Source: Chthonomonadaceae bacterium
GTDB lineage: Bacteria > Armatimonadota > Chthonomonadetes > Chthonomonadales > Chthonomonadaceae
Direction: 5' to 3'
DNA: 39,295 bases
Assembly: GCA_027459665.1 (NCBI GenBank)
Contig: DAIDHN010000038.1
Coordinates: forward strand, 1 to 39,295
In this document: one piece after another, positions 6,598-32,424 of the stretch
Position numbering within the stretch: position 1 is the stretch's first letter
Layout: each line of letters begins with the position of its first letter
The notes under the pieces: model-generated
The model's input: the letters and a program-made list of their open reading frames with translations, nothing else
Databases searched by the model: none
Told to the model about the DNA's origin: nothing
Translations under genes and position numbers: made by a program

Positions 6598-7283
6598 AAC
6601 AGAGTTCTTCCACTTCCTACACTACCGGGCAAAAAATAACCCGCACGCTCTGGATTACAGCCCTGCGCATTTTCTTCAAAACCATGGGCCGGTACAAAAT
6701 TGTGGGTGCAGAAAACATACCGGCCGAAGGCGCGCTCATTTTTGCCGGCAACCATGTATCTAACCTCGACCCCATTTTTGGCTGGATGGCTATCTCGCCG
6801 TACCGGCATGTACACGGCATTGCCAAAGAGGAATTGTGGAAGAACCCGCTTTTTTCTTACCTTATGAACGCCATGGGGTGCATTCCTGTAAAAAGGGGCG
6901 CATCCGACCGATCCATGCTGCGCACCGCGCTGCATGTGCTGAGCCAGGGAGACTGTACCGGAATTTTCCCCGAGGGTACGCGCAGCAGAAACGGAATGCT
7001 GCAACAGGCGCAGCCTGGCCTCGCGCTTATCGCTGCAAAAAGCGGTGCGACTGTGGTGCCGGTAGGCATTGTGGGCACATACAATATGATGCCGCCCGGC
7101 CGCAAGTTTCCCCGCCCGGCAAAACTTGTGCTGGCATTTGGCAGGCCGCTCTGTTTTCCGCCCGATGCCCCCCGCCAGCAAATTCTCGATGACACCATGG
7201 CAGCCATTGCATGCCTGCTTCAGCAAAACGGCTGGCCAGAAGCTCTGCCTGCTGCCGCAGATTCGCCTTCACCGCAAACGTAA
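6594..7283 (+). CDS. plsC: 1-acyl-sn-glycerol-3-phosphate acyltransferase family protein
   Basis: This acyltransferase is expected to acylate lysophosphatidic acid to phosphatidic acid at the inner membrane, a core step of phospholipid synthesis. The catalytic block I, NHVSNLD, spans residues 53-59 with the essential H54 and D59. Block III, FPEGTRS, which binds the glycerol phosphate, begins at residue 125, and block IV-like VPVGIVG follows. A short hydrophobic N-terminal helix precedes the catalytic core. The start overlaps the cmk stop as ATGA, so the two are translationally coupled. The acyl donor (acyl-ACP or acyl-CoA) and exact lysolipid cannot be read from the sequence. Confidence 0.88.
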   Translation: MKQSSSTSYTTGQKITRTLWITALRIFFKTMGRYKIVGAENIPAEGALIFAGNHVSNLDPIFGWMAISPYRHVHGIAKEELWKNPLFSYLMNAMGCIPVKRGASDRSMLRTALHVLSQGDCTGIFPEGTRSRNGMLQQAQPGLALIAAKSGATVVPVGIVGTYNMMPPGRKFPRPAKLVLAFGRPLCFPPDAPRQQILDDTMAAIACLLQQNGWPEALPAAADSPSPQT

Positions 7284-7313
7284 AAAACCCGCGCCTTTTT
7301 ACAAAGGCGCGGG
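7282..7313 (-). terminator. Intrinsic terminator of the DUF2325-like gene
   Basis: An 11-base perfect stem (7288-7298 with 7303-7313, loop TTAC) is followed on the minus strand by six T residues (A-run 7282-7287 on the plus strand). The T-run favours the leftward transcript. The stem may also slow the rightward plsC transcript, which has no T-run there. Confidence 0.85.
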
Positions 7314-7337
7314 CAAAAGCAATGCGCTTTCAGTACA

Positions 7338-9161
7338 TTACGCAGTGACTGCAGTGCGTGTGGCCAATATAGCTGTTGCAAGCCGTTTCAATGGGAACAC
7401 GCCAGGCACCTGCACAAATGGCTTGCCGCTCTGAAGGCATATATTCTCTGCGCCATGCCAGTCTTTGCGGCTGAAGCGTGTAGCCAAAACCACCATGTCG
7501 CAGCCCGCAATTGCAGCATCAAAGCGAGAAAGCGTGTCTGCTGTAGTAAGCGGCGGCCAGATAATCTCGCAGTCAAACACTTCCCGCAAACGTGCCATGC
7601 CGGCATCGCTTTTCAGGTCGCCCAGTATCAAAACACGCTGGTTGCGCGTCACCGTCAGGGCTTCCTGCAACAGGTCTGCAATCTCCTTCAGGCTCTCCGC
7701 ATCATCTACCGGCGCAGGGTCGAGCCGGTTGGCGCGCAGGCGGCCTTCCCAGTCCAGCTGAATTTCCCGCACGGTATCGCGAAAACGGTCATCGCCTTCC
7801 AGCATGGCAGACCAGGGTAAAAGCGATGCGCGCAAACGCGGGTCAGAAGCCGGTGTGCCTGCCTGTTTGGTTTGCAAAACCGCTTCCGCCAGTTTTTCGC
7901 TGTCTTCTGCAAAGTTTTCTCCAAAGCAAGGGTCTTCGGTAAGCTCTACCAAATGCTCTACCGCCTGGCCTCTGCCTTCTGCAGCTGCCAGCGGAGCACG
8001 CGCCTGATCCCAGGCGGCATCCAGTCTGCTTGCCTTGTCGACCAGTTCGGCAATGGGTACTTTGGGGCGCAGGCTGAACAAATAGCACTGCGCTTCCCTG
8101 GCCCACACGCGCAGATCATCAAACAGTTTTTGCTGAAACGGGTCGCGGGCGTTGATGCGAAACAGAAGCCGGTTGAAACGCTGCTGAATGGCAGCCACTG
8201 CCTCAGCAAGAGGCTGTACATCCTGCACGGTAAGCCGCTCGCGATTCTCTACCCACCACTCAAAAGCCTCCTGGGCACGGGCTGTTTCCTCATGCCTTTC
8301 GGCAAGCTCTCCCCACTGAAAGGCAGTAGGCCGCGGTTCGATGTCGTACTGAAGGGTTACGGTGTATTCTTCATCTCCCCCTTCTTCCCGAATGCGTTCC
8401 AGGTCTGTCTTCAATTCCGTTACTTCCGCAATTTCCGTATCGCCACCCTCTTCTTCCAGCCTTCTCATGCGGCAGGCTATAGCGCGAAGCCGAAGTGCAT
8501 TCGGAATATGCAGCTCGCCGTTTTCCCGCTTGACGGGGTTTTCTACAATCCAGGTCTTCAGTTCTTCCCGCATGCGAATGGCATCTGCCTCAATATCCAC
8601 CAGAGGGCGCATAGGCTGCCGCGGCAGACGGGCTGCCGGGTCTTCAGGCCTGGGGGCAAATACTGAAGGCTGTGAGGCAATTTGCGACAGGCCGCTCGCC
8701 GGCGCCGAAATAACAGGCATGGCAAGCTGGCGCGGCTGGCTGATCTCTGCTGTAAACACAGGCGCCGCTGCCTGAGGAGAAACCGCAGGACGCTGCTGAA
8801 TCTGCTGCACTGTCGCCCAGTTTGCACCTGCACCCTGCGGGGCAGACTGCGAAAGAGACTCAAGCAGCTCGCGCACTGCCACACGCACCTGCCAAAGTTC
8901 GTTGTACAGGGTATTGTCTTCTACAGCGCGGGCTGTTTGCAGCAAACGGGTAAGCCGCTCATAAGCTGACCGCAAGAAATGATTGCGCTGAACAGCATAT
9001 TCGGCCAGCCTGTTTTGCACTTGTAAACAGTAGGCATCAAATGCCTCCTGAGAACGCAGGGGAGAGCCTTCTGAACGTGGGGAGGGTTCTGAAGTACGCG
9101 TTGCATCCTGACTCTGAGGGGCGGAAATGGGGCGGTAAGCCCCGTAATCTGCTTCCGACAT
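7338..9161 (-). CDS. Hypothetical helical protein with C-terminal DUF2325-like domain
   Basis: The function is not recognised. The 607-residue product has an N-terminal helical segment (about residues 40-105), a Pro/Ala/Gln-rich linker (about 105-195), and a long acidic, mostly helical middle rich in Arg and Glu (about 195-500). The final 99 residues form a compact alpha/beta domain starting RVLILGDLKSDAGMARL, with a later AGCDMVVLATRFSRKDW strand. That strand pattern resembles DUF2325 (PF10087), a small Rossmann-like domain of unknown function. No signal peptide or membrane segment is seen, so it is probably cytoplasmic. An AGGAG lies 11 bases before the ATG. It has its own promoter and terminator, so it appears monocistronic. 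Confidence 0.7.
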   Translation of the reverse strand: MSEADYGAYRPISAPQSQDATRTSEPSPRSEGSPLRSQEAFDAYCLQVQNRLAEYAVQRNHFLRSAYERLTRLLQTARAVEDNTLYNELWQVRVAVRELLESLSQSAPQGAGANWATVQQIQQRPAVSPQAAAPVFTAEISQPRQLAMPVISAPASGLSQIASQPSVFAPRPEDPAARLPRQPMRPLVDIEADAIRMREELKTWIVENPVKRENGELHIPNALRLRAIACRMRRLEEEGGDTEIAEVTELKTDLERIREEGGDEEYTVTLQYDIEPRPTAFQWGELAERHEETARAQEAFEWWVENRERLTVQDVQPLAEAVAAIQQRFNRLLFRINARDPFQQKLFDDLRVWAREAQCYLFSLRPKVPIAELVDKASRLDAAWDQARAPLAAAEGRGQAVEHLVELTEDPCFGENFAEDSEKLAEAVLQTKQAGTPASDPRLRASLLPWSAMLEGDDRFRDTVREIQLDWEGRLRANRLDPAPVDDAESLKEIADLLQEALTVTRNQRVLILGDLKSDAGMARLREVFDCEIIWPPLTTADTLSRFDAAIAGCDMVVLATRFSRKDWHGAENICLQSGKPFVQVPGVFPLKRLATAILATRTAVTA

Positions 9162-9320
9162 AAAATGGATATCTCCTGATCGATTGGTCTAACCGGTCAC
9201 TGATGTGAAACTGCCTTGCTTTTACAGACAGGGAAGGGGAACATCGAGCGACAGTTTGGTGCAATTATCCCTGAAAACGCCTGTTCAACAATAATGGAGG
9301 CGCATGCAGATCAACACTCT

Positions 9321-9350
9321 ATTTTAGCACGGTTTCCTCTCTGCTGTAAA
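9321..9350 (-). promoter_or_regulatory. Extended sigma70 promoter for the DUF2325-like gene
   Basis: On the minus strand, TTTACA (9345-9350) and TAAAAT (9321-9326) are 18 bases apart, and a TGC immediately before the -10 makes it an extended -10. Transcription would start near 9313, giving an untranslated leader of about 150 bases before the gene at 9161. The rest of the 324-base gap to phosphoketolase (9162-9485) shows no gene. Confidence 0.6.
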
Positions 9351-9485
9351 CTATCAGAAACACTGTTTCTGCAACAGATGTTTTTTCTCCTGCTTTTCAG
9401 AAAAAAAAACATATGCTTCTGTTTCAATTCAACTGGTCTTATTACCAAAAACTGCAGGAGCAGCGCCTTTTTCCCCTCTGTAGTA

Positions 9486-11870
9486 TCAGTCTCCCGGCCA
9501 TTTCCAGCTGCGCACCTCAGGCATATCTTCGCCATGCACGCGAATGTAGTGATGATGATCGGTGCGCAGATCGCGCATTTGTTGGCGCAGATGCGCCGCT
9601 TCTGAAACCAGGCCGGGCACTCTGTCTATTACATCCATCACCAAATGATACCGATCGAGATCATTCATCACCACCATATCAAATGGTGTGGTGGTAGTGC
9701 CCTCTTCTTTGTAGCCGCGTACGTGCAGATTGGCGTGAAAGGCGCGGCGATAGGTCAGCCTGTGTATGAGCCAGGGATAGCCGTGAAATGCAAACAGGGT
9801 CGGGCAGCCTGGCGGAAAAAGGGCATTGAACTCTTTTTCGGGCAAACCGTGCGGATGCTCTTCAGGCGACTGCAGGGTCATCAGGTCTACCACATTCACT
9901 ACCCTGACTTTGAGCCGGGGCAGACTGGTTCGCAAAATATCTACCGCTGCAAGGGTTTCCAGGGTGGGCACATCGCCGCAGCATGCCATCACTATATCCG
10001 GCGTGCCTCCTTCATCCGAGCAGGCCCACTCCCACATTCCTATGCCTGCCGTGCAGTGCCGCACCGCCTCCTCCATACTGAGAAACTGCAGAGCCGGCTG
10101 CTTGCCTGCCACAATCACATTGATGTAATTGCGGCTTCGCAAACAGTGGTCTGCTACCGAAAGCAGGCAGTTGGCATCGGGGGGCAGGTAAACGCGCACC
10201 ACCCCTGCCTTTTTGTTTACTACATGGTCGAGAAAACCGGGGTCCTGGTGGCTGAAGCCATTGTGATCCTGACGCCATACATGCGAGGTAAGCAGATAAT
10301 TGAGGGATGCAATTGGGCGGCGCCAGGGTATGTGGGCGGTGGTTTTGAGCCATTTGGCATGCTGGTTGAACATGGAATCTACAATGTGAATGAATGCCTC
10401 GTAGCAAGAGAAAAAGCCATGCCTGCCTGTGAGCAGGTACCCTTCCAGCCACCCCTGGCAAAGATGTTCCGACAAAACCTCCATCACTCTGCCGTCTGGC
10501 GCAACATGGTCATCTGTTGCAAGTATCTCTGCCGTAGAACATCGGCTGGTTGCCTCAAACAGCGCGGTGAGGCGGTTGGAAGCGGTTTCATCCGGTCCCA
10601 TCACGCGAAAATTGGCTCGCTGGGCGTTGAGGCGCATGGTGTCGCGCAAAAACATGCCCAGCACACGCGTAGCCTCTGCCTCAGTTCTGCCGTGCGCCGC
10701 TACGGGCACTGCATACTTTTCAAAGGCGGGCAGCTCCAGGTCTTGCATCAGCAAACCGCCGTTTGCATGCGGATTGGCGCTCATGCGGCTTTCGCCTTCG
10801 GGAGCAAGAGCGGCAATTTCTGGCCGCAGAGCGCCCTGCTCGTCAAACAATTCCTCCGGGTGGTAAGAGCGCATCCACTCTTCCAGCAGTCTCAGGTGCT
10901 CAGGGTTGGCAGCAACATCTGCCATAGGCACCTGATGCGACCGAAAACTGCCTTCTGCCGGCAGACCGTTCACTTCTTTCGGCCCTGTCCAGCCTTTTGG
11001 TGTGCGCATCACAATCATGGGCCAGGCCGGGCGGCCGCTAAAGCCTTCTTCGCGAGCCTGCTTCTGTATCGCTCTTATTTGCTGCACTGCCTGTTCGAGC
11101 GCAGCTGCCATCTGCTGATGCATTTGCTGCGGGTGGCTGCCCGATACAAACAGGGGGCTGTAGCCATATCCCTCCATCAGGCTTTTCAACTCTTGTTCAG
11201 AAATGCGTGCCAAAACAGTGGGGTTGGCTATTTTATAGCCGTTCAGGTGCAGCACAGGCAGCACCGCCCCGTCTGTAACCGGGTTCAAAAACTTGTTTGA
11301 ATGCCAGCTGGCGGCAAGCGGCCCCGTCTCGGCCTCGCCGTCGCCCACCACGCAGAAGGCAAGCAGATTGGGGTTGTCGAATGCTGCGCCAAATGCATGC
11401 GCCAGCGAATAGCCCAGTTCGCCTCCCTCATGTATCGAGCCGGGTGTTTCGGGCGCTACATGGCTGGGTATGCCCCCCGGAAAAGAGAACTGTGTAAAAA
11501 GGCGCTTCATCCCCTCTTCATTCATGCCAATATGAGGGTACACCTCGCTGTAGGTGCCTTCCAGCCAGGCATTGGCCACTAGCCCCGGCCCTCCATGCCC
11601 AGGCCCGGTGATGTAAATGGCATCGAGTGCATACTTTTTTATGAGGCGGTTAATATGCACATACAAAAAATTGAGGCCGGGGGTGGTGCCCCAGTGCCCA
11701 AGCAAACGCGGCTTGATGTGCTCAGGCCGCAGTGGTTCTCGCAGCAGTGGGTTGTCGTACAGATAAATCTGACCTACCGAAATATAGTTCGCTGCACGCC
11801 ACCAGGCATGCATGAGATGCAGTTCGGCTTCTGTAAGAGGAGAGGCAGCGCTCTGGTTTTCTGCAGACAT
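9486..11870 (-). CDS. xfp: Phosphoketolase (xylulose 5-phosphate/fructose 6-phosphate)
   Basis: This thiamine-diphosphate enzyme cleaves xylulose 5-phosphate, and often fructose 6-phosphate, with phosphate to give acetyl phosphate plus a shorter aldose phosphate. Family signatures are clear: [13 protein letters not shown] near residue 57, GPGHGGPG at 89-96, [19 protein letters not shown] from about residue 145, and the cofactor/Mg motif GDGEAETG at 176-183. The 794-residue length is typical. GGGAG lies ten bases upstream of the ATG. No acetate kinase or phosphotransacetylase is adjacent, so the fate of acetyl phosphate is not shown here. No convincing promoter was found in the upstream gap. 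Dual versus single substrate specificity cannot be decided from the sequence. Confidence 0.95.
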
Positions 11871-20665: not shown

Positions 20666-22293
20666 GAGCAATCAAAACTGCAGGGCTTCTGCTGCAGCTG
20701 CGCCTGCGTATTGCACGCAATAGTATAAACGAGGTACGGCATCGCAGCAAGCTGCTTCTTTTTGTCATAGCGGCAGGCATTGTGCTGCTCGCACTGCTGG
20801 TATTTGCTGGCTCGCTAACTCTGCTTCTTATAGCAAGGCAGCAAAATGCTCTCCCTGAAATAGTTGCCCGTCTTTGCTTCACAGGCTTTTTGCTGCTGCT
20901 GGCCGGTTCGGTGCCTTTTGCAGCCTCCACTCTTGCCCTCTCTGAAGACTACCCGGTTCTTTTCGCCGCACCCATACAACCCGAGGCAGCTATTGCAGCG
21001 CGCCTGCTTGATGCGGCAGTATCAAACAGCGCTCAGTTTGCCGTCATCGGGCTGCCCATGTTTCCTGCCTGTGCATGGATAGCGGGTTATTCGGGCTGGC
21101 AGTGGCTGCTACTTACTGCAGCTGTCTTTCTTTACCTCACCCTGCCCGCCCTGCTTTCAGGCTTTATTTTGCTTGTGCTGCTCCGTCTGCTGGGCGCCGC
21201 CCGTCTGCGCGGGGCAATAGCCATTCTCAACCTGCTTATGGGGGCAGTTACCTGCCTGGCAGTTGTTATAGAAGCACAGCACCTGCCCATTCATTTCAAT
21301 GCTGTGCAGCTAATGCAGTCGCCCGCGCCGCTCACTGCTGCACACTGGCCGCCCGCCGTCTGGATGACACGCCTGCTGCTTTCTTCTGCTCACACGGGTG
21401 TTCTGCTGCAAAATCTGCTCTGGCTTTTTCTTGCCAATCTCGCCCTGTTTGCAGCATGCATGGCTGCAGGCAAAGGGCTGCAGGAAGAATTGGGAGATGC
21501 ACTGGCCGCAACAGAAAAAAATGCCGTTCGAAGCCTGCGCGGGGGCGAATGGCAGTGGCTGCCTTCGCCACTCGGAATGATGGCCTCGCGAGATACCCGC
21601 ATGGTGCTGAGAGACCCCATGCTTCTCTCACAGCTGGGCGTGCCGGTTCTGCTTTACCTCACACCCTATATGCTGGCAGTGCAAAACAGCGACCCGGCTT
21701 CCAGAGAGCTGCTTTTCCCCTTCGCAGCAGGAGTGGTGGTGTTTATACTGTATATGCAAACTAGTATTCTTACTCTTTCGCTGCCGGGCATGGATGCACA
21801 GGCTTTCTGGATCATTCTGGCAGCGCCGCAGCCTATTCAGCGTACGCTGGTTGCCAAGTGGCTGGTGGGCTTTCTCTTTTGCAGCGTTACCGCTGCAGCG
21901 CTGATATTGATTGCAGGCATCTCTTTTTCAGCCTCGCCTGCCGCACTCATACTATGCAGTGCAGTGATTTTGTGCAGCGCTGCAGCACTCTGCGGCCTGG
22001 GCACAGGCATTGCAGCGCTTTTTCCAAAGTTTATACACGCCAACCCATCGCTCAGAGTAAGCAACCTGGCTCTTATCGCTGGTTTTTTTGCCTCTGCCGC
22101 TTACACTCTTCTCTCTGTACTGCTGCTGGCAGGCGCATGGTGGATAGATCAAAACAGCACAGCCGGCTCGCTGCACAAAATTTGGGCAATACTCATGCTG
22201 CTGCTCTATCTTCTGCTCAGCGCGGTTTGCACTGCCCTGCCTATAGGGCTTGGGGCAGCGCGGCTGCAGCAATATGAATGGGCACAGGCATGA
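20662..22293 (+). CDS. Putative ABC-2-like exporter membrane subunit
   Basis: The 543-residue product is strongly hydrophobic, with roughly a dozen predicted transmembrane helices in two groups separated by a polar cytoplasmic segment (about residues 280-310, including DALAATEKNAVRSLRGG). This layout fits large ABC exporter permeases. Translation starts at TTG 20662, overlapping the M48 gene's TGA; the ribosome site is weak, which favours coupling. No ATPase gene is adjacent, so its energising subunit would have to be elsewhere. An orphan transporter or a different membrane protein family is also possible. Confidence 0.6.
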   Translation: MRAIKTAGLLLQLRLRIARNSINEVRHRSKLLLFVIAAGIVLLALLVFAGSLTLLLIARQQNALPEIVARLCFTGFLLLLAGSVPFAASTLALSEDYPVLFAAPIQPEAAIAARLLDAAVSNSAQFAVIGLPMFPACAWIAGYSGWQWLLLTAAVFLYLTLPALLSGFILLVLLRLLGAARLRGAIAILNLLMGAVTCLAVVIEAQHLPIHFNAVQLMQSPAPLTAAHWPPAVWMTRLLLSSAHTGVLLQNLLWLFLANLALFAACMAAGKGLQEELGDALAATEKNAVRSLRGGEWQWLPSPLGMMASRDTRMVLRDPMLLSQLGVPVLLYLTPYMLAVQNSDPASRELLFPFAAGVVVFILYMQTSILTLSLPGMDAQAFWIILAAPQPIQRTLVAKWLVGFLFCSVTAAALILIAGISFSASPAALILCSAVILCSAAALCGLGTGIAALFPKFIHANPSLRVSNLALIAGFFASAAYTLLSVLLLAGAWWIDQNSTAGSLHKIWAILMLLLYLLLSAVCTALPIGLGAARLQQYEWAQA

Positions 22294-23042
22294 CTCAAAA
22301 CACCACGCAGATGCCCGCATCTGCAAAACGCATGCAAATTACTGCGGTAGTCGTAACCGGCCTGCTTGCACTGCTCAGTCTGCCCTCTGTACTGCAATGG
22401 CAAAAAAACCATGAGCAGCAAACACTCAGTCTCTCGCACCTGCACAGGCTTGCCTATTCGCTGCAGCTGTACGCACAGGATTACGACGACGCGCTGCCTG
22501 AACCTATTGCGCCCTCTTCCTGCCTAGACTGGACTACGCGCCTGCGCGGCTACTACGACAACCGCCAGGAACTGCAAAACCCCTCCAACCCATTTCAGCG
22601 CCCAATAAAAGACCACGCAACAGGGTGCCCCATTCACAGCGGCTATGCCCTGAATCAGCGCTTCTACGGCCAGTTTTCCCCTGGCCCGTTTCCATTTTAC
22701 AACCTGGTGCTGCCCGCCCAAACAGCCCTTCTCGTAGAAGCAGGCCCCATGTGGAAAACCACAGGCAGGGCAGAGCAAAACTCTGCATCCCCACAGCCCT
22801 GGGGCAGTTTTGCATACACCGACACCCTGCAGCGCTTTAACGGCCTCGTGCCGTTTCCCTCCACCCACAACCACAAACTATGCCTTGCTGCAGCAGACGG
22901 CCATGCAGTATGCGTACGAGTTGCACACTATTCCCCCGCAGACGGGCCGCACAATACAATGCTGGGGCGCATAGGTTCGCATATGTACAACTGGAACGGC
23001 GGCCGACCCAACGGCCATGCCGACCAGCCCCCGCAAGAATAA
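22290..23042 (+). CDS. DUF1559-like (H-X9-DG) pseudopilin-related protein
   Basis: The 250-residue product has one N-terminal membrane helix (about residues 17-34), followed by LHRLAYSLQLYAQDYDDALPE, and ends with a HNHKLCLAAADGH segment. This arrangement matches the DUF1559/H-X9-DG proteins abundant in Armatimonadota and Planctomycetota, which resemble type II pseudopilins. The usual prepilin cleavage motif (GFTLIE-like) is absent here, so it may stay anchored. ATG 22290 overlaps the upstream stop as ATGA; an in-frame ATG at 22278 is the alternative. Confidence 0.62.
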   Translation: MTQNTTQMPASAKRMQITAVVVTGLLALLSLPSVLQWQKNHEQQTLSLSHLHRLAYSLQLYAQDYDDALPEPIAPSSCLDWTTRLRGYYDNRQELQNPSNPFQRPIKDHATGCPIHSGYALNQRFYGQFSPGPFPFYNLVLPAQTALLVEAGPMWKTTGRAEQNSASPQPWGSFAYTDTLQRFNGLVPFPSTHNHKLCLAAADGHAVCVRVAHYSPADGPHNTMLGRIGSHMYNWNGGRPNGHADQPPQE

Positions 23043-23106: not shown

Positions 23107-24324
23107 CTAATTGTCTCCCTCTGTGGCGCTTTGAATGTCGATCACCCCTTCGCCCAGATAATCTGAATAGAGAGGGTTCAGATCGCTAATATCGTAGGCA
23201 GAGCCGCATATTTGAGACACCGCATCATCTACCGACATCTCTGAGTTATGATAAAGCACATCTGCCGCCTCTGCCGAAACAAAAGGTGCCGCAAAGGAGG
23301 TGCCCGACCAGGTGGCATACCCGCCATTGTAGAAGGTGCTGCGCACATCTACCCCCGGGGCGCACACGCATACATTCTGGCCGTAATTTGACCAGGCTGC
23401 TTTCACATTACTAGAATCTACAGCAGCTACAGCTACTACATTGGGCAGGGCGGCGGGATAATGCGGCGCCATGCTGCCATCGTTGCCATCTGCCGCCACC
23501 ACTATTACCCCGTTGTTGTAGGCGTCTTCTACGGCATCTTCCAGGGCGTCGCTGTAGGTAGAAGTACCCAGGCTCAGGTTGATCACCGTGGCTCCATGAT
23601 GAATGGCATATTCTATCCCCATCACCACAGACATCACCGAACCATTTCCATCGCCATTCAGCACGCGAATGGGCATAATTGCAGCCCCAGGCGCCATTTT
23701 TGCAATAATGCCCGCTACCATGGTCCCGTGCCCCGCTGCTTCATTGGTAGCGCCGTCTGGCACATCCTGGGGAGGGAGAGCAGGGTTCAGCACATTGTAC
23801 CCCGCAGTCAGGTGCCCCTGCAGCGCCGGGTGCTGAAGGTCAACACCTGTGTCCAGCACAGCTACTACCTGCCCTGCGCCGGCATTGTCATCAAGGCTGC
23901 CTCCGCCAATTTGAGAGTAGCTGCCTGAAAACGCGTAATTGCCCGGGAGGCCGCTGGCATCGAAAGCAACGTGTATTTGAACGCTGTGCACCTCAGGATC
24001 GGTTACTGCCGAGTTACCCTCGGCAGATCGCGTTTGCGCAGAGCCTGCCAGCAAGGTCTGCAGCTGCGCATCGGTCATGCCTTCTGCAGGAAGCATACTG
24101 CAAATGCCTCCCCCGTCGGCTATATCCTCAACGGTCGCTCCAAACTGCGCTGCCAGTGCATATGCATCCACACCCGGTTGAAGTGCTACCACAATGCCGC
24201 TGTCTATTCCATCTTGCGCACAAGCCATTTTTGGCATCAGCAGGCAGCATACGCAGAGCATCAGCACTGCAAATCTGCCAGAAATAAACCTGGAAGTAGA
24301 GTGGCCCAAAGCTTTTGCAACCAT
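23107..24324 (-). CDS. Secreted subtilisin-like serine protease (S8)
   Basis: The 405-residue product has a signal peptide (about residues 15-36, ending ACA-QD), a prodomain-like region to about residue 120, and a subtilase domain. The catalytic triad is intact: aspartate 158 in AVLDTGVD, histidine 199 in GHGTMVAG, and serine 343 in SGTSFAAP. The oxyanion asparagine lies in AADGNDGS (about N281). AGGAG lies eight bases before the ATG. It is the last gene of the sigma/anti-sigma/CHAT operon, 20 bases behind the CHAT gene, so it is presumably induced with it. Its extracytoplasmic location contrasts with the cytoplasmic CHAT protease. Confidence 0.93.
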   Translation of the reverse strand: MVAKALGHSTSRFISGRFAVLMLCVCCLLMPKMACAQDGIDSGIVVALQPGVDAYALAAQFGATVEDIADGGGICSMLPAEGMTDAQLQTLLAGSAQTRSAEGNSAVTDPEVHSVQIHVAFDASGLPGNYAFSGSYSQIGGGSLDDNAGAGQVVAVLDTGVDLQHPALQGHLTAGYNVLNPALPPQDVPDGATNEAAGHGTMVAGIIAKMAPGAAIMPIRVLNGDGNGSVMSVVMGIEYAIHHGATVINLSLGTSTYSDALEDAVEDAYNNGVIVVAADGNDGSMAPHYPAALPNVVAVAAVDSSNVKAAWSNYGQNVCVCAPGVDVRSTFYNGGYATWSGTSFAAPFVSAEAADVLYHNSEMSVDDAVSQICGSAYDISDLNPLYSDYLGEGVIDIQSATEGDN

Positions 24325-24344
24325 AGTGAAATCTCCTCAGAAAG

Positions 24345-27209
24345 TTAACATCCGCCTACTATCAGAAACGGCGCCCAGTAATAGGAATGCTGCAAAGCCT
24401 CATAAAGCATGGTTTGCGCCTGCTGCAATGCGGCAGAGGCGGTTTTGCCCTGCTGCATGTGTCGATAAAATTCATTCATCAGCCTGTGAGTAGCATGGTC
24501 GTCTGCGGGCCAGAGGCTCACTGCCACCGATCGTGCCCCCGCAAGTAAAAGCCCGCGGGTAAGCCCAAACAACTCATCACCGGGCGCAACATGCACCGCC
24601 CCTGTGCTGCAGGCAGAAAGGGTAACCAGACTGCACCTGAGAGGCATTTCATACAGGTCTCGTGCAGTAAGCCATCCGTCTGCAAATTTCAAGCCTGAAA
24701 AGAGCGGGTTGTCTTCCCTGAATTCGGCATGCGCAGCTACATGTATAATTTGAGCATCTGGTGCCAGTCTGTTGAATGCTTCCAGAGTAGCCTCTTCCCC
24801 CAGCAGCAGTCTGGAGTTGGGCAGCATTGCTGCAACCTGCCTGCATTCTTCCTCTACCTGCTCGTATCCTGCTCCTGCAATGCCCACTACCAGAGAGCTG
24901 GGTTTCAAACCTGCGTTTGAGCTTCCCTCCTGCCTGGTTCTGGCAGCATGCCACACCGAGCTGCTGGGTGTGTAAAGAATTTCGTGATGCAGCAGCATGG
25001 GGCCATCTTCATCCATGAACGCATGAAAAGGAAGGCCGTGCAAATCGCCGTACGGCGCAATCAGCACGCGCGAGGTTTGTACATAGTGAAAAAGCGGTGC
25101 GCACAACAGATTGTGCAGTCTTTTCAGTACACAGTGCAGCACATCGCCTATTTCAGCCGTGTCATTTCCGCTGCAGGGTGTATGGCTCATAAACCGCTGC
25201 ATGTGAAAGCGAAACCGGTGTGCTTCTCTTCGCACAAGGGCCGCATCAGCAAGGTTTCTCACTGCCTGTATCTGTTTGGAAGTAACTACAAACGCCCCCA
25301 CCTCATCTTCCAGCACAAAAAACTCTATCAGGGTTTCATCAGCAGACAGAGTTTGCTGCAGCTGTTCTACAGAAACCGTAGTTCTTCCCTGCAGCCATGC
25401 AGGCCGCTCGCCTGCTCCCAGCAGCATGCACTGATGCTCCAGGCTGCGGTACTGCTGCTCAAGCGCTGTGTATTCCTGTTTGCGCACCTGCCGGCTGTTT
25501 ACCAGTCTCACCTGAGGCTGCAATGCTTCTCCATAGTGGTAGGCCCTGTTCAGGTCGAGGCGGGCCTGCAGCATTTTTTTCTGCAGTTCATACGCTTCCG
25601 GGGTCGTATCCCTGTCGCCCCGCGGGTTCAGATTTACCAGAATGCCTTCCAAAAGAATACGCGATTTACTCTGTTCTACATACTGCATGGCAGTCATAGT
25701 ATCTCCACGATGGCTGCGCTGCAAAAGCAGAGCAACAAGATCGGCATACACTTTTTCTTTTCCATCGAGAAAGGCTACATGAAATTCTTCGGGCACTATA
25801 AGCGTGCGTACGCTCTCCAATGCATCCACTGCCGAAATGTAGTGCCGAATAGCATCAGAAATACGGCTGCACCGGTGCATATACGCACCGATAGCATATT
25901 CGGCCCTGCACTCAAGCCAGCCCCTGCCGCACTTGCGCGCATGGCGCGCCACCATGCTCATCTGCCGCACTGCATTTCTGCCTGTGGCCAAATAGAGGTC
26001 GGCCTGCAGGTATGCGGCTTCTGCCGCCCAGCCGGGCAAATGCGATTTTCGAAAAATTTTGCATGCTTTTGCAGCGGCTTCTTCTGCTTCAACCGGCTTG
26101 TACACGCTGCGATAAATCCAGCCTTTTATCAGAGCGCAGTGTGCCTGCTGCACAGAGTTTTTGGTAGCGGTAAATATCTTTTCCGCCTCCAGTATCTCCT
26201 TCTCAGCCTGCTCCGTTTGCTGCAGCCGCAAATAAACCGAAGCAGAAATGGCATGCGCCCGCGCTCTGTCGTATTCCGACTCAACGGTTTGCAAACCAGC
26301 CATTGCCTTTGCACAACATTCCAGCGCTTCTGGGTAGAGGTTCAAAGCCAGGTAGGCGCCGGCAGCATCTATGTTGCAGCGCACCGCCTCGTGAGTACGG
26401 TGAAAACGCTCAAAAACCGATGCCGACCGCATAAAACAGGTAAGCGCCTGAGTGTAGTTGCCCGAAACATATTCCAGGTACCCCAGGTTGGTATCTACTG
26501 CCGCGGTGTTGATCTCGCTGCCTGCCTGTATAAAAAGATCGCGGGCTGTTTGATAGCGGGAAACGCTTTCTGCAATCCTGTCCAGGTGGGTAAGAGAGTT
26601 TGCAATGTTTACCTGCAGGGTGGCGAGAATTTGCGGGTCTATGGTGCTGCCGAAATGGGCTTCTGCAGCCTGGTACATTTGCAATGCCTGCTCGTAGTCA
26701 TCAGACCGAAAATAGGTGTTTCCCAAATTTACCAGAGCGCGGCCGCAGTCAAGAGACATCCCCGCCTCTTCCATCTCAAGAATGAGTCGTTTGCCCAGTT
26801 TCTCCGCATCAGAGTATCTTCCCAAAATGGCAAAAGAATCAATACTGCCCAATTGAACCGAAAGGCTCAACCCTCTGTCATTACCGCGCAGCGCCGCTTC
26901 GGCTGCCTCCTGCAGCGTCTGCAGCGCAGCATCGTGTCTGGCCAGTGCACGCAGGGCCTGCCCTTGTACGCGCAGTGAACGCGCCTGAGCAAGAGAGTTC
27001 TGCTGCATGGCAAAGAGGGCTGCAGCACAGCATGCCAGCTTTTCAGCCCTGCCTGCATCTGCCTGCAAACAGGCGCCTGCAGATTCAAGCATCTGCTCTG
27101 CAGCATTTTCCTGCATGGCAATGCTCTGCAGCAGAGCCGGCTGTATATCGCCTTCATTCCACCATTGCAGAAATCTGGTTTCCAGTTCAGAAGGCAGGGT
27201 ATGGTTCAT
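24345..27209 (-). CDS. TPR-CHAT caspase-like protease
   Basis: The 954-residue product is cytoplasmic by prediction. About residues 40-480 are TPR-type helical repeats, for example YRLQQTEQAEKEILEAEKIF-like 34-residue units, which usually bind a partner or ligand. A roughly 200-residue linker is followed by a C-terminal CHAT domain (about residue 690 to the end), a clan CD protease fold related to caspases. The catalytic histidine is in HVAAHAEF (about H827) and the cysteine in TLSACSTG (about C867); both are intact, and the downstream GLLLAGARSVAVSLWP block is typical. The start overlaps the anti-sigma stop as ATGA, so synthesis is coupled to that gene. Substrate and trigger are unknown. Confidence 0.92.
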   Translation of the reverse strand: MNHTLPSELETRFLQWWNEGDIQPALLQSIAMQENAAEQMLESAGACLQADAGRAEKLACCAAALFAMQQNSLAQARSLRVQGQALRALARHDAALQTLQEAAEAALRGNDRGLSLSVQLGSIDSFAILGRYSDAEKLGKRLILEMEEAGMSLDCGRALVNLGNTYFRSDDYEQALQMYQAAEAHFGSTIDPQILATLQVNIANSLTHLDRIAESVSRYQTARDLFIQAGSEINTAAVDTNLGYLEYVSGNYTQALTCFMRSASVFERFHRTHEAVRCNIDAAGAYLALNLYPEALECCAKAMAGLQTVESEYDRARAHAISASVYLRLQQTEQAEKEILEAEKIFTATKNSVQQAHCALIKGWIYRSVYKPVEAEEAAAKACKIFRKSHLPGWAAEAAYLQADLYLATGRNAVRQMSMVARHARKCGRGWLECRAEYAIGAYMHRCSRISDAIRHYISAVDALESVRTLIVPEEFHVAFLDGKEKVYADLVALLLQRSHRGDTMTAMQYVEQSKSRILLEGILVNLNPRGDRDTTPEAYELQKKMLQARLDLNRAYHYGEALQPQVRLVNSRQVRKQEYTALEQQYRSLEHQCMLLGAGERPAWLQGRTTVSVEQLQQTLSADETLIEFFVLEDEVGAFVVTSKQIQAVRNLADAALVRREAHRFRFHMQRFMSHTPCSGNDTAEIGDVLHCVLKRLHNLLCAPLFHYVQTSRVLIAPYGDLHGLPFHAFMDEDGPMLLHHEILYTPSSSVWHAARTRQEGSSNAGLKPSSLVVGIAGAGYEQVEEECRQVAAMLPNSRLLLGEEATLEAFNRLAPDAQIIHVAAHAEFREDNPLFSGLKFADGWLTARDLYEMPLRCSLVTLSACSTGAVHVAPGDELFGLTRGLLLAGARSVAVSLWPADDHATHRLMNEFYRHMQQGKTASAALQQAQTMLYEALQHSYYWAPFLIVGGC

Positions 27210-27847
27210 AACTCTTCTCCCACCTGAAGCGGGGCTATTTGTACCTGATTGCCATCATGCTGCAAAAGCATGATGTAGCTTCCGCGCGGTACGCTGTCTG
27301 CATAAAACTCCATCTGGCTGCTGCTCATCTGCAGACCATAACCGTTGGGCAGAAACAGTTCAGCCCTGGTAAGCGGTTCAGAGGCCGCCCTGCCACCGGC
27401 AAGCAGCACGCCCATCACCGACCAGTTACCCGATCTCTGCCGTTCCATACCAATTTCTATGGTGTATTGATCAAGCTGGTAGGTTTGTTGTATAGCATGT
27501 GCTGAGCCTCGTGCCCCGGCAGCAAGCAGTGCGCTGCGGCTGTCAAAAACCAGGCGTGCCTGGCGCAACTGCATCAGAGCCTGCAATGCAGTTTTGCTCT
27601 CATGCATAATGTTTTTGGCCCGTATCAGGGCATTTTGTGGAGCGCTTGCTGCGGTGAGTTCACCCGAGGCATGTACCTGCTGAAGTACATTCCTCCACCA
27701 CGCAACTTTTTCACTGCAGGGGGTACAGCCGTTTGCCAGATGTTCTTCCAGCCAGGCAATTTGTTGAGGGGACAATTTGCCTTCAAGGTAGTCGAGTATC
27801 TGCAGCTGTGTGAGATGTTTGCGAAGCATAATGCGTGCATTCTCCAT
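27206..27847 (-). CDS. Putative zinc-finger anti-sigma factor
   Basis: The 213-residue product has an N-terminal segment LDYLEGKLSPQQIAWLEEHL followed by CTPC, an H-x4-C-x2-C arrangement like the zinc-binding anti-sigma (zf-HC2) domain. It lies directly after the ECF sigma gene, the standard place for its antagonist. No transmembrane helix is apparent, so it would act in the cytoplasm. The C-terminal half is beta-rich and could be a sensor. Start choice is uncertain: ATG 27847 has no clear ribosome site, while ATG 27829 has a GGAG 12 bases upstream. The gene overlaps the CHAT gene by four bases. Confidence 0.68.
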   Translation of the reverse strand: MENARIMLRKHLTQLQILDYLEGKLSPQQIAWLEEHLANGCTPCSEKVAWWRNVLQQVHASGELTAASAPQNALIRAKNIMHESKTALQALMQLRQARLVFDSRSALLAAGARGSAHAIQQTYQLDQYTIEIGMERQRSGNWSVMGVLLAGGRAASEPLTRAELFLPNGYGLQMSSSQMEFYADSVPRGSYIMLLQHDGNQVQIAPLQVGEEL

Positions 27848-27904
27848 TCAGGCGCGTGTACATAACGATTAAATCCTGATCACAACACAAAACCAAGAAC
27901 ACAT

Positions 27905-28498
27905 TCACTCTCCAGAAAAATACACAGAATAACCCAGCCTGTCTAAAATTTTTTTCAATTTTCCCAAACATCTGCTTCTGCTGGGACCAATGCTTCCAGA
28001 AGGCATGCCCAGCAGGCTGCTGATTTCAAGGTATGTAGCTGGAGGGTCGTTCAGGTAAAGCATTTCAAGCAAACTGCGGCAGTTGTCAGCCAGCTCGCCC
28101 AGGCCGGTAACAAGCATGTACTGCTGTTCCTGAAAAAGAGCCTGTTCTTCCGGCAGCGGCAGCAGAGAAGGCTCGTTTGCAGCCGCAGGGTCTTCCATCT
28201 GCACAGTGGCTGCTCCACCACCCCTGCGAGCCGCGCTCGCAAATCGAATAGAACGAAGGGCTTCCTGCCGGGCAACAGCTGCCAGCCAGGCGCTCAGCTT
28301 TTCGGTGTTCTGAAGAGTATGAAGGTTTCGATACATGCTCAAACAGACATTTTGAAAAATATCATCTGCATCGCTGCCGCTCATACCGCAGCGAAGTATC
28401 ACTGTATAAATAAAGCGCTGGTAGCGGTCTATCAGTGCATCCCAGGCGTTTTCCTCCCCCTGTATACATTCTGCAATCAACCGTGCATCGGTCTTCAC
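27905..28498 (-). CDS. ECF-type RNA polymerase sigma factor
   Basis: The 197-residue product has sigma region 2 (about residues 8-80; RYQRFIYTVILRCG and DADDIFQNVCLSMYRNL) and region 4 (about residues 128-190; a helix-turn-helix around SSLLGMPSGSIGPSRSRC). Lacking regions 1 and 3, it is of the extracytoplasmic-function type. It begins at GTG 28498 with GGAG six bases upstream. A 57-base gap separates it from the anti-sigma gene. It likely transcribes its own operon, including the CHAT protease and subtilase. No matching promoter motif pair could be defined within the window. Confidence 0.9.
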   Translation of the reverse strand: MKTDARLIAECIQGEENAWDALIDRYQRFIYTVILRCGMSGSDADDIFQNVCLSMYRNLHTLQNTEKLSAWLAAVARQEALRSIRFASAARRGGGAATVQMEDPAAANEPSLLPLPEEQALFQEQQYMLVTGLGELADNCRSLLEMLYLNDPPATYLEISSLLGMPSGSIGPSRSRCLGKLKKILDRLGYSVYFSGE

Positions 28499-28565
28499 TT
28501 TTTTCTCCAGACCTGTTTAAGGGCAATGCAATTCTTTTCAACAGACACAATTTCGCTGGTTGGTT

Positions 28566-28575
28566 AGAATATTCT
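28566..28575. promoter_or_regulatory. Palindrome in the divergent sigma/glycosyltransferase gap
   Basis: AGAATATTCT is a perfect ten-base palindrome lying 68 bases upstream of the sigma factor start, in the shared regulatory gap. It is a candidate operator, but a palindrome of this size can arise by chance. Confidence 0.25.
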
Positions 28576-28606
28576 CCTTGAAAAATTGTTCCATTTCGTT
28601 TCGCTA

Positions 28607-28728: not shown

Positions 28729-29976
28729 ATGATTTATCAGGACACATTCAAGCTGCAAACCAGAGAGGCAGCCATTCAGCAAAACCTGCCGCTGCGAGTA
28801 GCGCTCTACTCTTCCGGCGTGGTAGGTCTGGGGCATATGAGACGAAGCCTGCTGGTTGCACAGGCGCTTTCACACTCTCCTCTGCATCCCGCGCTTTTGA
28901 TGCTGGCAGATGCCAGGCAGGCGGGTGCATTTCATATGCCCAAGGGCATGGACTGCGTTACCCTGCCCGCACTTATGAAAACCGACGGCCAGTTTCAGTC
29001 GCGCTACCTCTCTCTGCCGGTTCATAATGTATCTTCTCTTCGCGGCGCCATGCTGCTTTCGATACTGGAAGAATATCGCCCGCATCTGCTGCTGGTAGAC
29101 AATGTGCCCAGAGGAGTGATGGGTGAGCTTGCTCCCGTGCTGCGCATGCTGCAGCGAAGTGACAAAACCCGCATTGCACTGGGAATGCGCGATGTTCTCG
29201 ATGACCCCGAAGCAGTGAAAAGTGAATGGGAGCATCTGCACAACCAGGATTTTATACTGCAGAACTATGACGAAGTGTGGGTATACGGAGACCCCGCAGT
29301 AAACGATGTAGTGCAGGAATACGGGTTTCAGAAGGCGCTGGCACAGCGCATCAGATACACCGGCTACCTCGACCAGTCCGAACGCATTCAGAGCAGCCCG
29401 CGCGAAATACAGGAGGTGCTGGAATCGCTGGAGCTTACGCCGCACAAATACGCGCTCTGTCTGGTTGGAGGCGGACAGGATGGAGCCAGGCTTGCGCGTA
29501 CCTTCGCCCTCACAGACATGCCCACGGGTATGAAAGGTCTGATTATTGCCGGCCCATTTATGCCCGAAAGCGAAAAAATCGCACTGCACCATGCTGTCAT
29601 GGGCAACCGCAATGTAAAAGTGCTCGAATTTTTCCCTGAACCTGCCCTGCTCATCAAATATGCCGCCTCTGTTGTCTCTATGGGAGGCTACAACACTACC
29701 ATGGAGATACTTTCATTTGGTGCAAGGGCGCTGCTGGTGCCGCGCGTAAAGCCCCGCAGCGAACAGCTGATACGGGCAGAACGGCTGCAAAAACTTGGCC
29801 TGATTGATGTGATGCATCCAGACCGCCTCGACTCATGCGCGCTGGAGCGCTGGCTCAACAACACCGGCAGCCGCCCGGTGCCGGCTTCTTCCATACTCGA
29901 CATGCAGGGGATGAAGAGAATACCAGCCTATATGTCCACGCTTCTTGCCAGGCAAATTTCCTGCCACATTGCCTAA
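28729..29976 (+). CDS. MurG/GT28-like glycosyltransferase (COG4671 type)
   Basis: The 415-residue product has the two-Rossmann-domain (GT-B) layout. The N-terminal loop VVGLGHMRRSLLVAQAL resembles the acceptor-binding GxGHxxR motif of MurG-type enzymes. The C-terminal donor site includes SMGGYNTTMEILSFG and the following LLVPRVKPRSEQLIRAERL, typical of COG4671 predicted glycosyltransferases. No signal or membrane helix is seen. GGAGG lies ten bases before the ATG. It opens a seven-gene unit with two more glycosyltransferases and export proteins, pointing to a surface glycan or glycoconjugate. The sugar and acceptor are unknown. Confidence 0.82.
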   Translation: MIYQDTFKLQTREAAIQQNLPLRVALYSSGVVGLGHMRRSLLVAQALSHSPLHPALLMLADARQAGAFHMPKGMDCVTLPALMKTDGQFQSRYLSLPVHNVSSLRGAMLLSILEEYRPHLLLVDNVPRGVMGELAPVLRMLQRSDKTRIALGMRDVLDDPEAVKSEWEHLHNQDFILQNYDEVWVYGDPAVNDVVQEYGFQKALAQRIRYTGYLDQSERIQSSPREIQEVLESLELTPHKYALCLVGGGQDGARLARTFALTDMPTGMKGLIIAGPFMPESEKIALHHAVMGNRNVKVLEFFPEPALLIKYAASVVSMGGYNTTMEILSFGARALLVPRVKPRSEQLIRAERLQKLGLIDVMHPDRLDSCALERWLNNTGSRPVPASSILDMQGMKRIPAYMSTLLARQISCHIA

Positions 29977-30004
29977 CACTATCTTTAGTTTGAGGAGACT
30001 ACCT

Positions 30005-31258
30005 ATGAAACTTGGTTTTGTGGTGAAACGCTACCCACGCTATTCAGAAACTTTTATTGTTCGGGAAATTCTTGCGCACGAGGAGGCAGGCGTTCCGCTG
30101 GAAATTTTTGCCCTGCGACCGCCCAACGACAGGCATTTTCAAGACATTATCGCACGGGTAAAAGCCCCGGTCAACTACCTTTACATGCCAGCATTACCGC
30201 CGCAGACAGAGCCGGTTCCGGTAGATATGCTCACCCCTTCGGTGTATTGGGAAACATTGCAGCGGGCCGCCGATGTTTTTCCAAACTTCTGGCAGAGACT
30301 CGAACAGGCCAGAGGCGAAGAAGCGCGCAATGTGTACCAGGCCATGCTGCTGGCTTTTCAGGTGCAGCAAAAACAGATCACGCATCTGCATGCGCCATTT
30401 TCAAACCAGCCCGCTTCTGTAGCGCGCATGGCAGCGCTCTTTTCGGGCATAGGCTTCAGCTTTACTGCCCGGGCAAAAGACATTTTTCATGAATCGGTAT
30501 CGCACAACGACATACAGCGAAAACTGCAGCAGGCATCTACAGTAGTCACTATAACAGATTACAACCTGCAGTATCTGCGAAAAACCTATGGCGCAGATGC
30601 CGAAAAGGTGGTTCACATTTACAACGGCCTGGAACTCGACAGGCTGATTTACTCTGAGCCTTTGGTGCGAGAACCTCTCATTGCTGCAGTGGGCAGACTG
30701 GTTCCAAAAAAAGGGTTTGAGTACTTGATAGATGCATGCACGCTGCTGAAAGAGCAGGGAGAACGGTTTCGCTGCGTAATTACCGGTGCAGGGCCGCTGC
30801 AAACTGAGTTGCTGGCCCGCATTGAGGCAGCAGATCTGCAAAACACTGTGCAGCTCACCGGCCCTCTGCCGCACGTTGAGGTAGCCAGACTCATGCAGCA
30901 GGCGGCGGCATTCACTCTGCCATGCATTGTTGCTGAAGACGGCGACAGAGACGGCCTGCCCAACGTTATTTTTGAATCGATGGCGCTGGGAACCCCCGTA
31001 GTATCTACCGATGTAACCGGCATTCCAGAAATACTGTGCCATGGAGAAACCGGCCTGATGGTGCCGCAGCGCAATGCAGATAAACTGGCAGAATCGCTGG
31101 GTCTGCTTCTGCGCCAGCCCGAACTGCGCGTTCAACTTGCCCGCAATGCCCGCAGGCTCATTGAACAGAAATTCGATGCCGATAAAAATGCTGCTCAGCG
31201 GCGTGAACTGTTTGCAGGCAATGCTCAATCGGGCATTCTCACAGGAGCAAGAGCATGA
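30005..31258 (+). CDS. GT4-family glycosyltransferase (WcaL-like)
   Basis: The 417-residue product begins with VVKRYPRYSETFIVREI, a start typical of WcaL/AmsK-type enzymes of exopolysaccharide pathways. The GT4 donor-binding domain follows, with VGRLVPKKGFEYLI, the TGAGP turn, and an EDGDRDGLPNVIFESMALG segment holding the conserved nucleotide-sugar E-x7-E region. ATG 30005 was chosen because GGAG lies seven bases upstream; the frame extends 60 bases further without a ribosome site. It overlaps the next gene by four bases. Likely a retaining transferase using a nucleotide sugar, with specificity not predictable. Confidence 0.88.
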   Translation: MKLGFVVKRYPRYSETFIVREILAHEEAGVPLEIFALRPPNDRHFQDIIARVKAPVNYLYMPALPPQTEPVPVDMLTPSVYWETLQRAADVFPNFWQRLEQARGEEARNVYQAMLLAFQVQQKQITHLHAPFSNQPASVARMAALFSGIGFSFTARAKDIFHESVSHNDIQRKLQQASTVVTITDYNLQYLRKTYGADAEKVVHIYNGLELDRLIYSEPLVREPLIAAVGRLVPKKGFEYLIDACTLLKEQGERFRCVITGAGPLQTELLARIEAADLQNTVQLTGPLPHVEVARLMQQAAAFTLPCIVAEDGDRDGLPNVIFESMALGTPVVSTDVTGIPEILCHGETGLMVPQRNADKLAESLGLLLRQPELRVQLARNARRLIEQKFDADKNAAQRRELFAGNAQSGILTGARA

Positions 31259-32424
31259 AAATAGCCTATGTATGCGCAGACCCCGGCGTGCCGGTGTATG
31301 GAAGCAAGGGATGCTCTATTCATCTGCGGGAAATTGTGCGCCAGATGACTGCAAATGGAGATGAAGTAACCCTTTTCGCACGCAGCCTGGCAGGTGAGCG
31401 CCCTCACGACTTTTCATGCAGTCATATTGTGCCGCTGCCGCCGCTGCCGCGGGTGGAAGCGCCCCAGCGTGAACAATATGCCTTGCAGTCGCAAGATGAA
31501 ATAGAACAGCTGCTTCGTTTGCAAGGCCCATTCGACATGGTATACGAACGCTATTCTCTCTGGAATGCCGCTGGCATGGAGTATGCCTGCAAGCAGGCGA
31601 TACCCGGCATACTGGAAGTAAATGCCCCGTTGATTGAAGAACAGGCTGCCTACAGAACCCTGGTAGACCGCCGAAGCGCCGAACATATTGCGCAGAGGGT
31701 ATTTGCTGCCTCCAGCGCGCTCATTGCAGTCTCGCATGGCGTAGCAGACTATCTGGCTGGTTTTGCAAACACCAAAGGCAAAATTCATGTGGTGCCAAAC
31801 GGCGTAAATATACACCGCATCGCCCCCTGGTCGCCTCCTCTTATTCCGGCTGCCGATAAAATCACCCTGGGCTTTCTGGGCGGCCTCAAACCCTGGCATG
31901 GAGTAGATATACTGATAGAGGCGTTTTGCCAGCTGCACAAAGAAAACCTGAATGTGCGCCTGCTCATTGTGGGCGACGGCCCCGAAAGAGCCAGGCTCAA
32001 TGCAATGGCTGCCTCCTGCCCAGAGGCGGATATAGTATTCACCGGGGCAGTAGACGCTGCAATGGTGCCTGGTTTCCTTACTGCAATGAATATAGGGGTA
32101 GCCCCCTACCCTACCTTGAAACAGTTCTATTTTTCCCCCCTCAAAATTTACGAATACATGGCCGCAGGTCTGCCCGTGGTTGCCAGCAGAACAGGAGATA
32201 TTCCCTCCATTGTAGAGGATTTGCACACTGGCCTGCTGGTAGAACCGGGCAGCATCCTGTCGCTTACCCAGGCGTTGAAAACTCTTGTATACAACTCTGC
32301 AATGCGCCGTGAAATGGGCGCCAGGGCACGCAAGGCAGCATCTGACGGCCATTCCTGGGAATCGGTGATCAGTCGCATCTACTCTATTGCCGCGCTTTAT
32401 GATATTCAGGAGAAATCAGCCTGA
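31255..32424 (+). CDS. GT4-family glycosyltransferase
   Basis: The 389-residue product is a second GT4 enzyme. The N-terminal acceptor domain begins MKIAYVCADPGVPVYGSKG and the donor domain holds GFLGGLKPWHGVDIL, VGDGPERARL and YFSPLKIYEYMAAGLPVVAS, with the usual E/E nucleotide-sugar motif. It differs enough from the upstream GT4 gene to be a separate step rather than a recent duplicate. Its ATG overlaps the preceding stop (ATGA) and its TGA touches the adaptor gene's ATG (TGATG), so these genes are translationally coupled. Confidence 0.9.
   Translation: MKIAYVCADPGVPVYGSKGCSIHLREIVRQMTANGDEVTLFARSLAGERPHDFSCSHIVPLPPLPRVEAPQREQYALQSQDEIEQLLRLQGPFDMVYERYSLWNAAGMEYACKQAIPGILEVNAPLIEEQAAYRTLVDRRSAEHIAQRVFAASSALIAVSHGVADYLAGFANTKGKIHVVPNGVNIHRIAPWSPPLIPAADKITLGFLGGLKPWHGVDILIEAFCQLHKENLNVRLLIVGDGPERARLNAMAASCPEADIVFTGAVDAAMVPGFLTAMNIGVAPYPTLKQFYFSPLKIYEYMAAGLPVVASRTGDIPSIVEDLHTGLLVEPGSILSLTQALKTLVYNSAMRREMGARARKAASDGHSWESVISRIYSIAALYDIQEKSA

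Follow-up and report, generated by a model that had tools for sequence, protein, structure and literature searches.

We found that an ECF sigma factor, a soluble anti-sigma factor, a TPR-CHAT caspase-like protease and an exported subtilase are encoded together in at least four phyla (Armatimonadota, Acidobacteriota, Chloroflexota and Gemmatimonadota), and sequence comparisons strongly support the four genes being one conserved, coupled module. On balance, we lean towards reading it as a self-contained protease-gated sigma switch, in which the CHAT protease would cut the anti-sigma factor after Arg113, the sigma factor would be freed, and expression of the operon, with its subtilase, would be raised.

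The four-gene locus and its recurrence

The window analysed here is one entire contig (39,295 nucleotides) of a 3.67 Mb genome from Chthonomonadales (Armatimonadota). ORF coordinates place the four genes co-directionally on its minus strand in the order sigma, anti-sigma, CHAT and subtilase, with spacers of 57 bp (sigma/anti-sigma), −4 bp (anti-sigma/CHAT, an overlap) and 20 bp (CHAT/subtilase), the shared direction, four-base overlap and 20-base gap all being present as a preliminary description of this DNA had them. Codon usage is coding-like for all four genes. The features are as follows.

27905..28498, minus strand: ECF sigma factor, 197 aa, GTG start (PF04542, TIGR02937, alignment)
27206..27847, minus strand: soluble class-I anti-sigma factor, 213 aa (family-profile match to RsiW/DdvA, AF2 model)
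24345..27209, minus strand: TPR-CHAT caspase-like protease, 954 aa (PF12770, fold match to Csx29)
23107..24324, minus strand: exported S8 subtilase, 405 aa (PF00082, N-terminal hydrophobic segment)
27506..27514, minus strand: anti-sigma codons Ala112-Arg113-Gly114, proposed CHAT cleavage site (conservation and predicted coil)
28563..28592, minus strand: promoter-like element GGAACAATT-N15-TCTAAC, candidate autoregulatory (phylogenetic footprint upstream of the sigma gene)

Divergent from the sigma gene lie three glycosyltransferase-like genes (28729-32424, plus strand), and tail to tail with the subtilase gene lies one for a 254-aa protein (22278-23042, plus strand) with an N-terminal hydrophobic segment and without a Pfam match. 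The glycosyltransferase/sigma synteny is retained in the three closest genomes, to the limit of their contigs, and the module locus thus appears to be a stable chromosomal one.

Full-length CHAT orthologues were identified in 20 of 101 relatives (fragmented by contig ends in two of the 20), and the same partners recur around them, further neighbours not being conserved. The family version of the sigma factor is present in exactly those 20 genomes (profile scores of at least 200 bits; next best 168 and 120) and that of the subtilase in 19 (at least 371 bits; next 263), the G021 gene being cut by a contig end; the anti-sigma factor also occurs in 19 of the 20 (in G036 it is located at a contig end). 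The remaining 81 genomes have none of the four at these score levels, two of them (G041 and G077) carrying divergent versions of all four genes. Co-occurrence extends to unlinked parts: the sigma gene of G005 is on a separate contig, with the other three genes inside a 90 kb contig, and the subtilase genes of G022, G023 and G026 are on separate contigs, with the other three genes inside long contigs. These genomes are assemblies from fragments, in which a single unlinked case could be a binning error, yet three g16 genomes concur. Other CHAT proteins in the same or related genomes (L055-L059, L061-L063, L065) are without these partners. Moreover, among 201 genomes of the phylum, matches to the anti-sigma beta domain occur at CHAT loci only, with one exception at a contig end (G009); a match in G102 that we checked is adjoined by a CHAT gene. 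A chance gene neighbourhood was rejected, since unlinked parts still co-occur and the same content recurs in independent lineages.

A scan of species genomes with a single CHAT sequence retrieved nothing, and an alignment-based profile was needed; the cross-phylum sample comprises the best 80 loci from a CHAT profile scan of GTDB species genomes. Among these best 80 loci, the module is complete as sigma-anti-CHAT-subtilase in 10 of 13 from Armatimonadota (and in one more with the sigma gene divergent) and in 7 of 32 from Chloroflexota, and as sigma-CHAT-anti-subtilase in 19 of 29 from Acidobacteriota; many of the incomplete modules stop at contig ends or have diverged parts. With this gene set kept far beyond close relatives, across four phyla, the earlier proposal of one coupled module withstands the test set for it and is strongly supported. 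Of 158 gene junctions, 78 are no longer than 30 bp and 47 overlap or abut (with start codons uncurated), and the median gap between anti-sigma and CHAT genes is 7 bp where they are adjacent in that order. Within each phylum, the distance matrices of the partners track that of CHAT (r 0.86-0.98), as expected if the partners were inherited together with CHAT.

Ktedonobacteria have an anti-CHAT pair with no subtilase nearby and a diverged sigma-like gene upstream, recognised by eye only. Pairs of this kind without a subtilase were observed at L132-L134, L137-L139, L142, L144 and L145 (Ktedonobacteria and related). The Ktedonobacteria-type anti-sigma factor can have two zinc-finger-like motifs, and the conserved gene upstream of it, read at three loci, encodes a strongly diverged sigma-like protein of about 255 aa, without a Pfam match in the one scanned. 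Another Armatimonadota family carries a divergent module at L060 (G077:C3:10000-27000, 5084-10194) in the acidobacterial order sigma-CHAT-anti-subtilase, and the G077 subtilase groups inside the Acidobacteriota clade in the tree. From this grouping together with the gene order, the module seems likely to have passed as a whole from one phylum to another.

Two other readings were considered and set aside. A single profile scan of viral contigs with CHAT found no relative, which argues against a phage origin, and PADLOC had no model match for the sigma factor, the anti-sigma factor or CHAT, its matches for the subtilase being to generic subtilase/IetS models, which argues against a known defence system. 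On ten other window genes, PADLOC returned matches for one, of a kind resembling shared ATPase domains.

The component proteins and a candidate promoter

The sigma factor matches Sigma70_r2 (PF04542, 2e-13) in Pfam and, over residues 18-185 and regions 2 to 4, TIGR02937 (sigma70-ECF, 1e-18) in NCBIfam, both above cut-off. It has Sigma-70 regions 2 and 4 without region 3, the ECF arrangement, and the family alignment contains a conserved GSIGPxRxRCL motif. In the four closest genomes, phylogenetic footprinting revealed GGAACAWTT-N15-TCTAAY upstream of the sigma gene, the surrounding spacer being poorly conserved. An exact match occurs once per whole genome in G000, G011 and G014, a looser form once in each of these and twice in G001 (the extra match being unrelated), and a stricter form with one mismatch gave one extra site in one genome, no more than the reversed control; the pattern having been built from the four genomes' own sites, the independent evidence in these counts is rarity only. 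This rarity fits an autoregulated sigma factor, possibly one with a very small regulon. Across 51 loci, GGAAC had no clear enrichment upstream of sigma, and in the g16 genomes no element common to the unlinked sigma and subtilase genes was seen by eye, so a general GGAAC promoter across phyla was rejected. The shared sigma-responsive promoter anticipated in the preliminary description thus has a candidate in the four closest genomes, and no such motif was found in more distant loci. In some genomes, secreted-looking proteins or lipoproteins are encoded between sigma and anti-sigma (L039 4447-5991, L041 12352-13818, L040 10730-13426), and these are possible extra regulon members.

The anti-sigma factor consists of an anti-sigma domain (residues 1-91), a flexible loop with Arg113 (103-117) and an Ig-like (carboxypeptidase-regulatory-like) beta domain (118-209), corresponding to helices (14-91), coil (103-117) and a beta sandwich (118-209) in its AF2 model (mean pLDDT 87). 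No match above cut-off was obtained in Pfam or NCBIfam (zf-HC2 below threshold only, E 0.0047). The N-terminal part of the family profile matched solved structures of RsiW (5wuq, 2e-5) and DdvA (8rlz, 0.0024) as well as 3hug (0.0046), and the C-terminal part weakly matched carboxypeptidase-regulatory-type and other Ig-like domains, a fold search with the C-terminal domain yielding generic Ig-like matches only (best Z 8.3). With an N-terminal helical domain related to RsiW, RslA and RsrA, the protein belongs to class I (ZAS/ASD-I). The window protein has the zinc motif H36-x4-C41-x2-C44, of the H-x3/4-C-x2-C form, and the ligands are kept in 57 of 74 homologues but lost in several lineages, so that the zinc-finger label given earlier to this anti-sigma factor suits most members and not those lineages. 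Zinc therefore appears to be dispensable for the module, and ASD-I families can indeed lose the zinc motif among their members (PMC7406223). One Armatimonadota genome, G042, has three complete module copies (L040, L045, L048), two of them with an anti-sigma factor without the zinc motif.

Conservation in the anti-sigma factor peaks at Arg113, which 73 of 74 homologues have, ahead of the zinc ligands; among 51 representatives of less than 50% identity (mean 21%), 50 retain it, a level matched by one beta-strand Gly. The predicted coil that holds Arg113 varies in length and averages 39% at its remaining positions, and the next residue is in most cases Gly or Ser. Arg113 is retained in members without the zinc motif and in those without the subtilase, and in this it follows CHAT. 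Such a pattern would be expected of a P1 position cut by an Arg-specific caspase-fold enzyme, a resemblance and not proof; the role of Arg113 could instead be structural or sigma-contacting.

The CHAT protein matches PF12770 (1e-58) and TPRs in Pfam, with a TPR superhelix at about 36-500 and the CHAT domain at about 695-952. Its AF2 model (pLDDT 87.7, pTM 0.82) is closest in fold to Csx29 (Z 35.7 over 529 residues), with further matches to separase (Z about 30) and DdvA (Z 22 over 602 residues); Rap-type peptide receptors are among the fold relatives of the TPR superhelix (Z about 22), which may just reflect a common TPR arrangement. The His/Cys dyad of its CHAT domain, H827 and C867, places it among clan CD cysteine proteases and is aligned with H585 and C627 of Csx29, in which mutation of C627 abolishes activity (PMC9729208). 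The earlier claim that both proteases keep their catalytic residues was correct, H827 and C867 being found where it had placed them and the subtilase triad D158/H199/S343 being intact, and the expected retention in orthologues was seen in 81 of 81 CHAT homologues. Two acids are equally well conserved: E788 (81 of 81), in the helix that succeeds the first core strand, and D904 (80 of 80), at the N-terminal end of the helix behind the next strand after Cys. Gingipain-R and MALT1 hold the P1 Arg at such acid positions, and a separase model places it likewise (PMC4626109). From secondary structure, E788 and D904 are thus putative S1 acids as in Arg-specific caspase-fold proteases, although CHAT domains in general may have them, irrespective of Arg specificity. 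The conserved Arg113 loop and these S1-type acids together lend indirect support to the anti-sigma factor as the probable CHAT substrate.

The subtilase matches Peptidase_S8 (PF00082, 1e-44) above cut-off and, with its triad and signal segment, has the features of an exported S8 peptidase; the N-terminal hydrophobic segment is present in 44 of 49 module subtilases. Where a triad residue is missing in homologues, the alignment has a gap; this affects few sequences, most of them from truncated ORFs. In two sequences from Acidobacteriota, N replaces the D of the triad. Module subtilases form a clade (support 99/96) that excludes the remaining subtilases encoded by these genomes and includes the relocated g16 copy. 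A T7SS mycosin was considered and rejected, the subtilase being related yet scoring 166 bits against a cut-off of 279. By hydropathy, 67 of 69 anti-sigma factors lack a transmembrane segment, and CHAT has no clear one; given these profiles and the hydrophobic N-terminus of the subtilase, the proposed sigma/anti-sigma/CHAT switch would most likely operate in the cytosol, with the subtilase exported.

Comparison with known sigma-release systems

Craspase (Csx29/Csx30/CASP-sigma) shares with the module the TPR-CHAT fold, the aligned dyad, and a locus that encodes both an ECF sigma factor and an inhibitor of sigma. This inhibitor, Csx30, is cut by Csx29 in a small flexible loop, at residues 427-429, where no residue is essential, and sigma inhibition is thereby relieved (PMC10028731). 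In contrast, the inhibitor here is not Csx30 but a 213-aa zinc-type anti-sigma factor with an Ig-like domain, an exported subtilase is added, and Csx29 has Ser at the position of CHAT D904. Moreover, CHAT scores 46 bits with the Csx29 model (cut-off 300), which leaves it outside Craspase, and CHAT has as its identified partner genes those for the sigma factor, the anti-sigma factor and the subtilase, with no CRISPR, Cas7-11 or crRNA link among the identified neighbours.

In Myxococcus, DdvS/DdvA pairs an ECF sigma factor with a transmembrane anti-sigma factor (PDB 8rot, 8rw5, 8rlz). The anti-sigma domain of DdvA is of the same family and is joined to a TPR-CHAT body; there the two form one membrane protein, whereas here they are separate soluble proteins accompanied by a subtilase, an organisation distinct from a single transmembrane polypeptide of DdvA type. 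In a type III CRISPR system, CalpL cuts the soluble anti-sigma factor CalpT and frees the ECF sigma factor CalpS (PMC11417357). A signal-activated cytosolic protease that cuts a soluble anti-sigma factor would be of the same kind as the module, although CalpL is a Lon-like protease with a SAVED domain, triggered by cA4, and the protease here is CHAT. By analogy, we infer that the module works like Craspase and CalpL/T/S, but it is a member of neither, having no CRISPR partners among its identified neighbours and an inhibitor of another family.

A type III-B SAVED-CHAT proteolytic cascade with a CHAT protease at its head was reportedly described by Steens et al. in 2024; the CHAT protease is shared with the module, and the CRISPR link and cyclic-nucleotide activation are features of the cascade. 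The literature on CHAT with anti-sigma or ECF factors, covered mostly through papers outside subscription, contained CRISPR cases and no account of the four-gene module.

The proposed switch, its alternatives and its meaning

In the protease-gated switch towards which we lean, the soluble anti-sigma factor would hold the ECF sigma factor through its N-terminal helical domain in the resting state. An intracellular signal received by the TPR superhelix would activate the caspase-like domain, and active CHAT would then cut the anti-sigma factor after Arg113, in the loop between its sigma-binding and Ig-like domains. The cut protein would be inactivated or further degraded, with release of the sigma factor, which would transcribe its own operon and amplify the switch; operon induction would also add exported subtilase, which may act on a target outside the membrane. 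Coupling between CHAT and the anti-sigma factor is favoured by a four-gene set that the same 20 genomes among 101 share, unlinked cases included, and that stays complete though reordered at 19 Acidobacteriota loci and in Armatimonadota G077; cleavage of the one by the other is favoured by the precedents of Csx29/Csx30 and CalpL/CalpT. The promoter-like motif, unique in the genome, speaks for autoregulation by the sigma factor; its restriction to four close genomes, and the lack in g16 genomes of a motif common to unlinked sigma and subtilase genes, count against it.

Control might instead be exerted by conformation, with the TPR-CHAT protein as a receptor that binds the anti-sigma factor and with proteolysis as a downstream or feedback event, such as self-cleavage or clearance. 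The fused DdvA, a single polypeptide that has both the anti-sigma domain and the TPR-CHAT body, would fit such a non-proteolytic sensor role too, as would the tight packing of anti-sigma and CHAT genes (median gap 7 bp) and the persistence of the pair without subtilase in Ktedonobacteria. We nonetheless regard it as unlikely, for it leaves unexplained both the near-invariant Arg113 loop and a catalytic dyad kept in 81 of 81 homologues. CHAT and the subtilase might also be simply output enzymes, for example executioners of a stress or cell-death response, of a sigma/anti-sigma pair that senses stress alone (e.g. redox or metal at the zinc site). The H-x4-C-x2-C motif of most anti-sigma members and the location of both protease genes downstream of the putative sigma promoter are consistent with that role; yet many members lose the zinc ligands and keep Arg113, and in 201 genomes the anti-sigma family, hits at contig ends excepted, is always accompanied by CHAT, a constancy that co-regulation alone would not need; we think this role rather improbable. 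A relay running both ways, with the exported subtilase as signal input that makes a peptide or processes a ligand outside, to be re-imported and read by the TPR superhelix, would account for the Rap-type peptide receptors among the fold matches (Z about 22, perhaps a common TPR arrangement) and for a subtilase that co-occurs even when unlinked; with no peptide gene or importer noticed and the subtilase missing near the module in Ktedonobacteria, such a relay seems to us highly improbable.

CHAT proteases are caspase-like and common in bacteria; very few of them, to our knowledge, have a native substrate assigned, and most of these few belong to CRISPR systems. Here, the operon itself encodes the predicted substrate with its predicted scissile residue, which makes the function of a large CHAT group directly testable. 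As a broader and tentative suggestion, plausible but one to which we do not commit, the modules may be CRISPR-independent, caspase-gated sigma switches spread over four phyla, in which an Arg-specific TPR-CHAT protease coupled to a subtilase would cut the anti-sigma factor at its invariant Arg, and of which Csx29-Csx30-CASP-sigma could be CRISPR-adopted relatives. If this is true, caspase-type control of sigma factors would be a general chromosomal strategy, extending beyond CRISPR, and the module would tie an internal protease to an exported one.
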